Positions 10,542 to 23,970 of a DNA stretch of 27,172 nucleotides are shown one piece after another; position 1 is the first letter of the stretch; the number at the start of each line of letters is the position of its first letter. The notes beneath the pieces were generated by a model that did not search any database, was not told where the DNA came from, and saw nothing but the letters and a program-made list of their open reading frames with translations. The DNA lies in the IMG/VR virus record IMGVR_UViG_3300027574_000005, positions 1-27,172 of that record, one strand, 5' to 3'. The position numbers and the translations under genes were made by a program. The DNA comes from a virus.

Positions 10542-11915
10542 TTAAGTTGCGCTTGCAATCGTAAATCCATAACCATTTAACGGTAACGCGGCTGCAATAG
10601 TTCTTACTGTCCACTGGTTATTGAACAGACCGATATCACCCTGAGAAGCAACGTTCAGAGATAATGGCAAGTCGGAACCTGGCACTTTCATTTGCAATAC
10701 CATTTCAGTTGGGAATGCGCTGTATTTTTGATTCGCAGCGATTGATGGATTTGGGAAAGTAGCAACAGGAGGGTTAGCAGCGAAGAACCCATCGCGTATA
10801 AAGCCGAAACTTTTACGGTAAACGGTACTCGCGCCACCAAACAGGCTAACAATCGCACCGCTCGTCACTTGAGCGCTAACGTTTCTATAGTTATCAGCAG
10901 GGTTTGCAACGATAGGGGCAAAAACGGCAATTTGCGCATTACCCGAACCATCTGCGTCAACCGATGCATTGAAACCGCCCGAACCATTTGGAGAGCCCAT
11001 AACGTAGAATTTCTTCGCGTTATTATAAGGCTGGTATGAATCAGGATTTAATGCGCGCACTGGGGTGGTGCCGATGATAAAGGAAATTAAATCGCCTTTG
11101 TTTAATACGCCTGTCGCATTAGCAGTAAATCCACTTAAGCTTACTAATGTGAACGCGTCATTAATTGTGGTAGTCAAAGGAACTGTTGTAGCAACAGTTA
11201 CGTTACCAGATGCAGCGAAAGTACCATTGGTATGCATTTTCATCAGCACATCTTCGCCTACCTTCATGCCATAAATATTTTCACGACGGGAATTCAGCAT
11301 GATTGGGGTTGACATACCTTCGTTAAAGTAGCTTGGGTAAGCTAACTGTAATGAGTTAATGGAGTCTGGATGGAAAACAACATATCTATCGTTTCCGCCA
11401 TTAATTTGACGCAGCCCCATGTTAGAAAACTGGCTATCATAAAGAGCCATGCTCGCTTGGCCTGAAATAGGCTGAGTTGGATCGCCAACCGCATCTGACC
11501 AATACATTTCGCAGCGGTCAATAAAGGATGAATCAACTTGGTTACCAATCGAACGAGCAGCTGATGTCATATAATACGCATCGAATTCAGCATCATTTTC
11601 TGTCATTGAGAAGAATGACATTTGTTCAGCGGTCATTGAAAACGGAGTTGTTTTTTGAATATCTAAAGTGATAGTTTGTTCACGCACAAAGATATTGTTA
11701 TTTTGGGTAGTTAAATCTACAGATAAACCGTCGTAAGTAGATAATTGTTGTGGATAAATGAAACGACGTGAATCGCCAGCGGATGCATTGTTATTGAAGC
11801 CCATATAAGACTTCGCTAAGCCTGACATACCAAGAGCGTTAATAAATGAAGGAAACATTTGTTTAGCAATCAGATTACTTACCTGAAAACTATTATTAGC
11901 TGTTGAAAATGGCAT
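10542..11915 (-). CDS. major capsid protein, P22 gp5-like coat
   Basis: This 457-aa protein (P22 coat is 430) has the layout of the P22-type HK97-fold coat: an N-terminal arm (residues 1-60), a long-helix region around FFSMTENDAEFDAYYMTSAARSIGNQVD, and a Ser/Thr/Ala/Gly-rich insertion from about residue 225 to 345 that would match an enlarged insertion domain. It follows the scaffold gene, as in P22. No proteolytic cleavage site is evident and no protease gene is present nearby, in line with P22-type assembly. Its ribosome-binding site GAGG is buried in a predicted hairpin (see 11923-11970). Confidence 0.85.
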   Translation of the reverse strand: MPFSTANNSFQVSNLIAKQMFPSFINALGMSGLAKSYMGFNNNASAGDSRRFIYPQQLSTYDGLSVDLTTQNNNIFVREQTITLDIQKTTPFSMTAEQMSFFSMTENDAEFDAYYMTSAARSIGNQVDSSFIDRCEMYWSDAVGDPTQPISGQASMALYDSQFSNMGLRQINGGNDRYVVFHPDSINSLQLAYPSYFNEGMSTPIMLNSRRENIYGMKVGEDVLMKMHTNGTFAASGNVTVATTVPLTTTINDAFTLVSLSGFTANATGVLNKGDLISFIIGTTPVRALNPDSYQPYNNAKKFYVMGSPNGSGGFNASVDADGSGNAQIAVFAPIVANPADNYRNVSAQVTSGAIVSLFGGASTVYRKSFGFIRDGFFAANPPVATFPNPSIAANQKYSAFPTEMVLQMKVPGSDLPLSLNVASQGDIGLFNNQWTVRTIAAALPLNGYGFTIASAT

Positions 11916-22275: not shown

Positions 22276-22406
22276 CGGCAATTTTCTCCAAATAAAGATA
22301 AACAACTATTATGATGCGATAAATCGAGTCGCAGAGCGAGTTTTTGAGTCGCATTCACTTTCATGTTCAAAATTGGAACCCAAGATAATTTTCTAATCAT
22401 GGTATT

Positions 22407-22430
22407 TTAAAAAGTTAATTAACTTTTTAA
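22407..22430. repeat. perfect 24-bp AT-rich palindrome
   Basis: The half-site TTAAAAAGTTAA (22407-22418) is followed directly by its exact reverse complement (22419-22430), with no spacer. The core GTTAATTAAC recurs nearly exactly (GTTTAATTAAC) at 22434-22444. With no loop it is a poor RNA hairpin, so a DNA-binding dimer or cruciform is more likely than a terminator. Confidence 0.7.
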
Positions 22431-22455
22431 TTTGTTTAATTAACACATTTATGAT

Positions 22456-22471
22456 TGTTCCATGTGGAACA
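22456..22471. promoter_or_regulatory. parS-like 16-bp site
   Basis: TGTTCCATGTGGAACA has 7-bp perfect arms around a central TG. It differs at one position, the eighth base, from TGTTCCACGTGGAACA, the parS-type sequence bound by chromosomal ParB of gammaproteobacteria such as Pseudomonas. No parA or parB gene is in the window. Binding is not shown; the lost central C could weaken it. Confidence 0.45.
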
Positions 22472-22500: not shown

Positions 22501-23316
22501 CTAATTAAATATTCGTTTAAGACGAGTATCTCTTTCATCACATTCTTTTTGTTTGAATTTAAACATTCGGTCCCGAATCATGATCATCCCAATTTCAAGT
22601 GTTAAACCCTTCTCAACATGACTTCTTAAAATTGCTGCGCCAGTGTTGTAAGATAGTTTACTTTCTGTGCATTCGTTGTAAAATTTAATAATATTGGCAA
22701 TAACATCAATTTCCGATTTATAGCTTCTTGGTGCAACGTTTTTATATAGGGTGCTACATGCGTATGGGATTGACTGTTTTAATTGAATGGCGGTGGGTGT
22801 TTGATCGATTTTGGTGTACCTTGAGGGATGGCTGTCTCGGCTGTTCGGCAATTTTGTATGTAAAAATGGCTGTCTGCTCTCTCCGATCGTAGATCCCAAA
22901 CTCTCTACAAAGTTTGTTTTTATAGTTTGTGATATAGGAGGGGTCTTGATCCGACAAAATGGCGGATCAAGAATTGACTTATCCACAGGTTTATCCACAG
23001 ACTTATCCACATTTGGCAGATCAAGATTTTTAGCACACTTTTTATCCGCCATTTCGTTTACTATTTGCTCTATTTTAGCATAGTTTGGTCTAATTAAAGC
23101 CACCTGTCTTCGCTGATATTCGACTAAAATATATTCATTTTGACGTAGGTAACGCATGGCGCGATCTACAGTTCTTATTGAACAACACATAATTTTTGAA
23201 ATCGTTTCAGTTCCAGCATAACAAAAAGATTTCTTAATGGATAATTTTAGAATGAGCTCTAAGAGCAGTTTTGCTCTGCGATTGGGTATGTTGACTTTGT
23301 TGATTTTTTTGTACAC
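22501..23316 (-). CDS. HTH replication initiator-like protein carrying the origin in its gene
   Basis: This 271-aa protein starts at GTG 23316, with AGGAAG seven bases upstream. Residues about 36-60 (TETISKIMCCSIRTVDRAMR) form a winged helix-turn-helix of the type in phage and plasmid replication initiators; the wing follows (EYILVEYQRRQVALIRPNY). Residues 103-114, VDKSVDKPVDKS, are the translation of three DnaA boxes. A Pro/Ser-rich linker leads to a C-terminal helical domain (VIANIIKFYNECTESKLSYN), where a helicase or loader would bind in lambda O-like proteins. It is the only minus-strand gene in the early half. Initiator function is inferred from the fold and the embedded origin. Confidence 0.65.
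   Translation of the reverse strand: MYKKINKVNIPNRRAKLLLELILKLSIKKSFCYAGTETISKIMCCSIRTVDRAMRYLRQNEYILVEYQRRQVALIRPNYAKIEQIVNEMADKKCAKNLDLPNVDKSVDKPVDKSILDPPFCRIKTPPISQTIKTNFVESLGSTIGESRQPFLHTKLPNSRDSHPSRYTKIDQTPTAIQLKQSIPYACSTLYKNVAPRSYKSEIDVIANIIKFYNECTESKLSYNTGAAILRSHVEKGLTLEIGMIMIRDRMFKFKQKECDERDTRLKRIFN
22803..23026. other. candidate replication origin inside the initiator gene
   Basis: Three perfect DnaA boxes, TTATCCACA, stand at 22979, 22991 and 23003, spaced 12 bases. To their left is a 10-bp inverted repeat, TCTTGATCCG (22944-22953) and CGGATCAAGA (22963-22972). To their right a copy of the same unit recurs as GGCAGATCAAGA (23015-23026). Six GATC sites occur at 22803, 22885, 22892, 22948, 22965 and 23019, several times the number expected. 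An AT-rich stretch at 22905-22935 could melt. This layout resembles lambda ori inside gene O and DnaA-dependent plasmid origins. Confidence 0.7.
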
Positions 23317-23349
23317 TATATAACTTCCTGTTATAGATATCGTGACGGG

Positions 23350-23417: not shown

Positions 23418-23428
23418 GCGTCTGTTGT

Positions 23429-23457
23429 AGTGTACAATGCTTACCATACTTTTACAA
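23429..23457 (-). promoter_or_regulatory. promoter of the initiator gene, with dyad
   Basis: On the minus strand TTGTAA (23457-23452), 17 bases, TACACT (23434-23429). Transcription would start near 23422 and give a leader of about 105 bases with two hairpins. The region is framed by TGTTGTA (23423-23429) and TACAACA (23453-23459), a 7-bp inverted repeat, which may be an operator shared with the rightward gene at 23476, for which I find no clear promoter. Confidence 0.55.
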
Positions 23458-23475: not shown

Positions 23476-23952
23476 ATGACTCAGCCATTTAAATTTAAAA
23501 AAGATAAAACTATCGAAGCCGTAGACGCACTCCTAACTCTCACTTCCCATATGCTAAATATTCTAATGCCTAAAGATTTTTCCACCGAAGGAAAAAAACA
23601 AGCAACCGCCGATGCGTGGGCTCGAGCAGAACAAATGAAAAATATAGTCAATCAATATTATGAAGAACATCCCCTTAAACGTAATTATGGTGCTCCAGTT
23701 TATAATTTTAAATTAGAAAAAACAGCTGAATTAGCTTTCAGAAAAGCACTTGACTATGCAGGAAATGGAGCCGCCCTTGCTGAATTATGCTGCTGCGCCT
23801 CTACCCGCATATATGAAATAACGCGAGGCGTTAAATCTACAGTAGGAATGAAATTAGCTAAAAGAATTCATATAGCAACTAAAGGAACAGTAAAAGCATG
23901 GGAGCTAAATTCCCAAATTGATAAAGATTTTAATCCAAGTGTTGACATATAG
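23476..23952 (+). CDS. YdaS/Cro-like DNA-binding regulator
   Basis: This 158-aa protein has an N-terminal helical domain (residues 1-65) and a C-terminal helix-turn-helix at about 88-145. There, KALDYAGNGAALAELCCCAS, then RIYEITRGVKSTVGMKLAKR, and a final TKGTVKAWELN match the layout of YdaS/Cro-like regulators (A-x-x-x-AGG-x-x-x-LA, recognition helix, final 'T-G-x-V-x-x-x-x-L'). It stands divergent from the initiator gene across a dyad-framed promoter region, a typical place for a phage regulator. The -35 box of the next promoter begins in its last codons. Ribosome-binding site is weak. It could repress the initiator and/or the sister promoters (inference). Confidence 0.65.
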   Translation: MTQPFKFKKDKTIEAVDALLTLTSHMLNILMPKDFSTEGKKQATADAWARAEQMKNIVNQYYEEHPLKRNYGAPVYNFKLEKTAELAFRKALDYAGNGAALAELCCCASTRIYEITRGVKSTVGMKLAKRIHIATKGTVKAWELNSQIDKDFNPSVDI

Positions 23953-23970
23953 TTTATTGTATACTATACT
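23942..23970 (+). promoter_or_regulatory. early promoter PR2, sister of PR1
   Basis: TTGACA (23942-23947), 17 bases, TATACT (23965-23970). It matches the promoter at 17291 over about 28 of 32 bases, including the spacer (TTGACATA, TATTGT, TACTATACT). The same dyad is present with one mismatch (AGTTTA and TATACT). It drives the recombination genes. The -35 box overlaps the last codons of the upstream regulator gene. Confidence 0.8.

Follow-up and report, generated by a model that had tools for sequence, protein, structure and literature searches.

A probable replication origin carrying host DnaA boxes within the linker-coding part of a phage initiator-like gene

Introduction

According to the available excerpts of the cited sources, the replication origin of phage lambda and the Stx phages lies in the middle of gene O, where inverted-repeat iterons are bound by the initiator next to adjoining AT-rich DNA, and extra repeats lengthen the linker by added residues; the lambda origin has four iterons of ~19 bp and a 40-bp AT-rich tract (PMC5043065, PMC7466680). 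DnaA is described there as acting via pR transcription (PMC7466680), and the excerpts describe no DnaA boxes within these origins (PMC5043065, PMC7466680). In the RepA_N plasmid pSK41, as excerpted, the N-terminal domain of the initiator binds boxes that are central in its own rep gene, and the part of the protein that the origin encodes is a linker which can be deleted; the same review states that no DnaA boxes had so far been detected in staphylococcal plasmids (PMC5703833). The origins of P1, R6K and pSC101 unite replicon-specific iterons, mostly direct repeats, with host DnaA boxes, and the excerpted text does not describe DnaA boxes coded inside the initiator gene for any of them (PMC5043065).

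Here we analyse a 27-kb virus record (27,172 nucleotides, referred to throughout as the window), possibly a fragment, in which an initiator-like gene contains three DnaA boxes. The candidate origin has in common with that of lambda and the Stx phages a position in the middle of an initiator gene and inverted repeats within it, but adds the three DnaA boxes and has few palindromes, a weak AT tract and no P-like helicase-loader gene beside the initiator within the window, itself perhaps incomplete. With the RepA_N plasmids it shares a location in the central linker of the initiator gene, whereas the presence of DnaA boxes and the lack of a RepA_N Pfam match in the 271-aa protein set it apart; with the iteron plasmids it shares the pairing of specific repeats and host DnaA boxes, there not described inside the initiator gene. 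The window protein and most of the box-bearing open-reading frames scanned match PHROGs 428, 186, 270 and 678 (replication initiation, DnaD-like loader, O-like), families which are defined by protein alone. We found no description in the open-access literature of phage initiators whose linker codons contain DnaA boxes, or of the peptides that such boxes spell, which is no proof of novelty; an intragenic phage origin with host DnaA boxes is apparently previously undescribed.

Results

Three in-frame DnaA boxes in an initiator-like gene

The 271-aa protein is laid out as an N-terminal winged helix (approximately residues 10–95), a linker containing the putative origin elements and a C-terminal part, and its gene is preceded by a ribosome-binding site (Table 1). 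As in lambda O-type initiators, the N-terminal domain is a DNA-binding winged helix: the protein matches PF13730 (HTH_36) with an E-value of 9.8e-7, above the Pfam cut-off, and PHROGs for replication initiation and DnaD-type loaders, the best being PHROG 428 (E 8.9e-8), with weak matches to the O-like PHROGs 391 and 678. The PHROG matches are weak but consistent, and run mainly through the winged helix. The neighbours are a convergent RusA-like gene and a divergent, weakly YdaS-like gene at 23476. Searches for close relatives of the initiator in phages, plasmids, viral contigs and genome contigs found none, nor did a terminase-based search find sister phages, and because the window initiator has no close homologue found, the comparative evidence below comes from other initiator families. 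An AlphaFold run on the window protein without an alignment gave a mean pLDDT of 35.7 and no usable model.

The three boxes are exact copies of TTATCCACA, all co-oriented, with a unit spacing of exactly 12 bp, a cluster of consensus boxes such as a DnaA-type origin would have; one further exact copy occurs in the whole window, at 11749–11757 (−). All three are antisense to the gene and in frame, spelling the peptide NVDKSVDKPVDKS, the first valine of which is residue 103, so that the repeated VDKSVDKPVDKS spelled by the array stands directly after the winged helix. The synonymous positions that the boxes require at residues 102–113 (T before each Val, GTG for Val and GAT for Asp) agree without exception. 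Given the peptide, the probability that all three boxes would be spelled is 2e-4 with the codon usage of the genome and 7e-5 with that of the gene.

Table 1 Features of the initiator-like gene and its surroundings in the window.
Feature	Position	Strand	Basis or detail
Initiator-like gene, 271 aa	22501–23316	−	GTG start at 23316, stop 22501–22503
Ribosome-binding site AGGAAG	23324–23329		7 nt upstream of GTG start
DnaA box 1, exact TTATCCACA	22979–22987	+	Exact-match scan
DnaA box 2, exact TTATCCACA	22991–22999	+	Exact-match scan
DnaA box 3, exact TTATCCACA	23003–23011	+	Exact-match scan
Codons of residues 102–113 (NVDKSVDKPVDK)	22978–23013	−	9/9 box-required synonymous positions match
Palindrome TCTTGATCCGACAAAATGGCGGATCAAGA, 29 bp, candidate initiator binding site (iteron)	22944–22972	.	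Repeat search
Repeat TGGCAGATCAAGA, direct copy across the boxes	23014–23026	+	Repeat search
Diverged inverted copy TGGCGGATAAAAA, partner of 23014–23026	23039–23051	−	Repeat search
Short AT-rich stretch, 31 bp, 26% GC, weak candidate opening element	22906–22936	.	Left of palindrome
AT minimum near gene, 15% GC	22400–22459	.	Just past the 3′ end of the gene, outside it
Perfect inverted repeat	22407–22430		Within the AT minimum
Six-site GATC cluster	22803–23022	.	Sites at 22803, 22885, 22892, 22948, 22965, 23019
TTGTACACTA, operator-like, overlaps initiator start codon	23309–23318	+	Match to TTGTAYACTA
TTGTAYACTA, exact match	23428–23437	−	Motif scan
TTGTAYACTA, exact match	23957–23966	+	Motif scan

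Repeats and base composition around the boxes

Inverted repeats lie inside the gene and code for the linker, as in the lambda O type, in the form of the palindrome and the diverged pair spanning 23014–23051; lambda-type origins have four or more regularly spaced iterons, whereas here there is one clear palindrome plus that pair, and the repeat arrays spaced 23–24 bp that are common in homologues are absent from the candidate origin region of the window. Relative to the boxes, the palindrome is on the side where homologues have their repeats, and the inverted-repeat score is 10 to the left of the boxes (p = 0.00, 40 shuffles) against 5 to the right (p = 0.85). The GC content of the box flanks is 33–45% in 60-bp windows, that of the whole window ~38%, and the GC profile revealed no pronounced AT-rich tract within the initiator gene. 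Compared with a lambda-like opening region of ~40 bp next to the iterons, the AT-rich stretch at the palindrome measures 31 bp, and the strongest AT bias is outside the gene, in a stretch that is a candidate alternative opening element or a terminator. The TTGTAYACTA motif has three exact matches in the window and no others, all of them near the start of the initiator gene and the weakly YdaS-like gene; these copies are likely repressor operators.

Most of what the initial annotation had read from this DNA was recovered: three perfect boxes at 12-base spacing, translated as a repeated tetrapeptide in an HTH protein (in frame, and with the PF13730 match), flanked by GGATCAAG-type repeats (the palindrome and the diverged pair), with six GATC sites in about 220 bases and in a gene that, on the ORF map, faces against the surrounding genes. 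The AT-rich DNA that it placed beside the boxes holds for the 31-bp stretch but not for the flanks as a whole, the minimum being outside the gene. The GC skew of the window, which it had proposed as a check, gave no origin signal, and because skew follows gene orientation we dropped it as evidence on the origin.

GATC sites

GATC is otherwise scarce in the window, with 25 sites found against 75–81 expected (ratio 0.33), and is the most depleted palindromic tetramer among those tested; such strong avoidance across positions 1–27172 suggests GATC-directed pressure, for example restriction, in the host range. Not one of 20000 uniform placements equalled six sites within 220 bp, and three of the six fall inside GGATCAAG repeats. 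The initial annotation had raised possible Dam/SeqA control on this ground. However, 15 other box arrays lack the clustering (16 sites observed against ~31 expected, compared with 7 against 0.29 for the window array), and we rejected the cluster as a conserved Dam/SeqA control, since it is confined to the window and is not a general feature. As a separate observation, ten other loci (L005, L017, L022, L037, L039, L045, L047, L061, L065 and L076) have mostly non-coding arrays, most with ~5 boxes, and a local GATC count of 5–10 against 1.4–4.8 expected; they possibly form a separate, Dam-linked origin group.

Homologues selected by the winged helix alone

Homologues were retrieved on the winged-helix sequence only, the boxes not being a criterion. 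The family A1 search returned five loci, the same five contigs that had been found through boxes, that of family A5 also returned five, and that of family A3 returned 80, of which the 74 with a gene uncut at its 3′ end were counted. An exact box was present in 50 of the 74 and a one-mismatch box in a further 23, with a single homologue having none; the one-mismatch forms were mostly TTATCTACA, TTATGCACA and TTGTCCACA, and may be weaker or lineage-specific boxes. All the exact boxes in A3 homologues are antisense, in one codon phase and in the linker. There are one to four boxes per homologue, their number changes among close relatives by whole 12-bp units (as in the series NLP-VDKS-NV, NLP-VDNS-VDKS-NV, NLP-VDKS-VDNS-VDKS-NV), and the spacers differ between repeat units.

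In a codon test that took a single representative from each of the 16 clusters (34 VD[KN] sites), full boxes were found at 10 sites, where peptide and codon usage predict 0.7 and synonymous codon shuffling within the gene predicts 1.2. The codon before Val ended in T at 29 of 34 sites (7.1 expected), Val was GTG at 17 of 34 (10.1 expected) and Asp was GAT at 22 of 34 (13.3 expected). Some homologues keep VD[KN] with the non-box codons GTA, GTT or GAC. The loss of boxes through synonymous codons under a retained peptide, which the initial annotation had named as evidence against an origin, is seen only in a minority; in the alignment of homologues that it had called for, boxes persist while linker residues vary, though exact boxes have gone from some.

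One homologue, L328, has a winged helix that is 51% identical, and the VDN peptide is gone from its linker; two exact boxes occupy the corresponding place in the linker, on the opposite strand and in two other frames, where they code VIHKKQSYPQ, beside ACAAGCTGCACCTTGT-type repeats that have been retained. We favour a function at the DNA level because the boxes of L328 outlast a change of peptide, frame and strand. Two further homologues, L327 and L147, have no box even within one mismatch, and since L327 retains the repeats, dependence on the boxes can evidently be lost. Taken at the level of sequence comparison, selection of the boxes as DNA in the homologues is well supported.

Repeats and predicted structure of the linker

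Most families have their inverted repeats to one side of the boxes, 5′ with respect to the TTATCCACA strand, and the repeat sequences are family-specific: GATAACCCTATGTTATC, ACAAGCTGGGGCTTGT, GGTAACTGATTAGTTACC, ACAACCTCCAGGTTGT and CTGTCCAGATTTCTGGACAG. They are often 23–24 bp apart, and often followed by AT-rich DNA. Of 20 arrays given an inverted-repeat score, 18, among them that of the window, score higher on the left than on the right. Because repeats and winged helices differ between families while the boxes are the same, the arrangement fits initiator-specific iterons combined with host DnaA. An AlphaFold model of a homologue, built with 42 homologues, has block-mean pLDDT values mostly of ~68–89 in the winged helix and 80–90 in the C-terminal helices, but ~27–43 across residues 134–188, the stretch coded by boxes and repeats; by this prediction the linker is probably disordered. 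Foldseek searches with the model returned generic winged helices, the Rep/initiator chains 5kbj and 4pt7 ranking third and fourth with a weak E of ~0.009, and a sequence search of solved structures with the homologue profile gave no match.

The same array elsewhere

The triple array at 12-bp spacing was found in at least 119 viral-contig stretches (L002–L120). Among these matches listed, 31 loci have it in VD[KN]x register within an open-reading frame of at least 180 aa, and other open frames are rarely so placed over it. Ten such VD[KN]x proteins were scanned, with seven matching replication-initiation, O-like or DnaD-loader PHROGs, one matching a transcription regulator and two without a match. 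The array alone is not specific, because further arrays fall outside coding sequence or within genes for proteins other than initiators. Four closely similar, apparent membrane proteins of 321–325 aa (L009, L019, L030, L087), which are not initiators, carry VDNPVDN box arrays on contigs without any GATC.

Four chromosomal winged-helix regulators (L213, L231, L243, L259) also carry in-frame TGTGGATAA arrays, as VDKS/VDKT repeats in near-perfect 12-bp copies just before the winged helix, whereas the units vary in most phage initiators. One of them, L243, belongs to a Woesearchaeota (archaeal) MAG; to our knowledge, archaea have no DnaA. Because such regulators, one archaeal, carry these arrays, the array alone is no proof of a role for DnaA, and on this sequence evidence they show that repeats of the VDKS/VDKT type can arise without an origin.

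Box arrays were seen in further settings. In three Desulfurobacteriaceae/Thermovibrio MAGs (L268, L273, L280), triple arrays occupy the final codons of an apparent dnaA, the protein ending in VDNYVDNYVDN, and box and gene overlap there too. In the ssDNA microvirus PQ006781 (L323, 1813–1856), four tandem boxes at 11–12 bp spacing straddle the 3′ end of the gene annotated as replication initiator, and several other microviruses have similar matches. Several T5-like phages, for example MF431730 at 5779, show similarity to the box array in the left terminal repeat or in other regions.

Discussion

We consider it likely that the segment at 22.9–23.05 kb is the replication origin of this phage, or the core of it, within the linker-coding part of the initiator gene, and its interpretation as an intragenic origin of the lambda type with added DnaA boxes of the plasmid type is well supported by the comparisons made here. 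The initial annotation had proposed such an origin, embedded in the initiator gene as in lambda O but with host DnaA boxes; the proposal gains from the homologues, from L328 and from the recurrence of the array with family-specific palindromic repeats in initiators of several families, and is tempered by those homologues which have lost the boxes. Its further idea, of protein and origin sequence evolving together, has to be amended: the DNA appears to lead. Through its winged helix the phage initiator would bind the GGATCAAG palindromes, host DnaA would bind the three co-oriented boxes, the two proteins would jointly open nearby AT-rich DNA, and the host helicase would be recruited or loaded at the opened DNA. 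Selection would act on the DNA, with the VDKSVDKPVDKS peptide a by-product in a linker, probably disordered, that tolerates whatever gets spelled.

DnaA is also a transcription factor, and the boxes might instead be regulatory, with intragenic DnaA, as roadblock or sensor, matching initiator expression to the cell cycle of the host, the palindromes being autoregulatory and the origin lying elsewhere, on a missing part of the genome. The operator-like TTGTAYACTA copies do suggest a regulated gene, and if the window is a fragment, further candidate origins may lie on DNA that it does not cover. We nevertheless find this unlikely, as the boxes lie deep in the coding region beside inverted repeats and, in many homologues, AT-rich DNA, comparable with the intragenic origins of lambda and pSK41, and as the layout recurs across initiators of several families.

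It is quite improbable that VDKS/VDNP has been kept for some property of the linker peptide, the boxes being a codon coincidence or the product of recent 12-bp tandem slippage: the synonymous positions track the box far past codon usage (10 against 0.7 for full boxes, 29 against 7.1 for T before Val), spacers vary between units, L328 has boxes without the peptide and the linker is disordered in the predicted model of a homologue. The same in-frame, near-perfect 12-bp copies in the chromosomal regulators, one archaeal, and the initiator homologues that keep VD[KN] with non-box codons do count in favour of such a peptide. A tight array of exact consensus boxes would also suit a sink that titrates host DnaA, slowing host replication or freeing the replisome for the phage; yet with just one to four boxes per homologue, and with a location in the initiator gene and adjoining initiator-specific repeats, neither of which a sink requires, this role seems scarcely credible.

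Beyond the origin proposed for this phage, we lean towards the broader view that many phage groups, independently or via mosaic cassette exchange, have written host DnaA boxes into the codons for the linker of unrelated initiators, beside initiator-specific inverted repeats, which would constitute a widespread class of DnaA-dependent origin, recognisable in the protein sequence alone by VD[KN]x repeats, in which the peptide is dictated by the DNA. The origins of uncultured phages are rarely known, and if this view is right, they could be located by the signature of TGTGGATAA-encoded VD[KN]x repeats in the linker of a protein with a winged helix. It would also be a clear example of dual coding, with the protein sequence set by DNA function, and such phages, unlike lambda, would need host DnaA at the origin itself.
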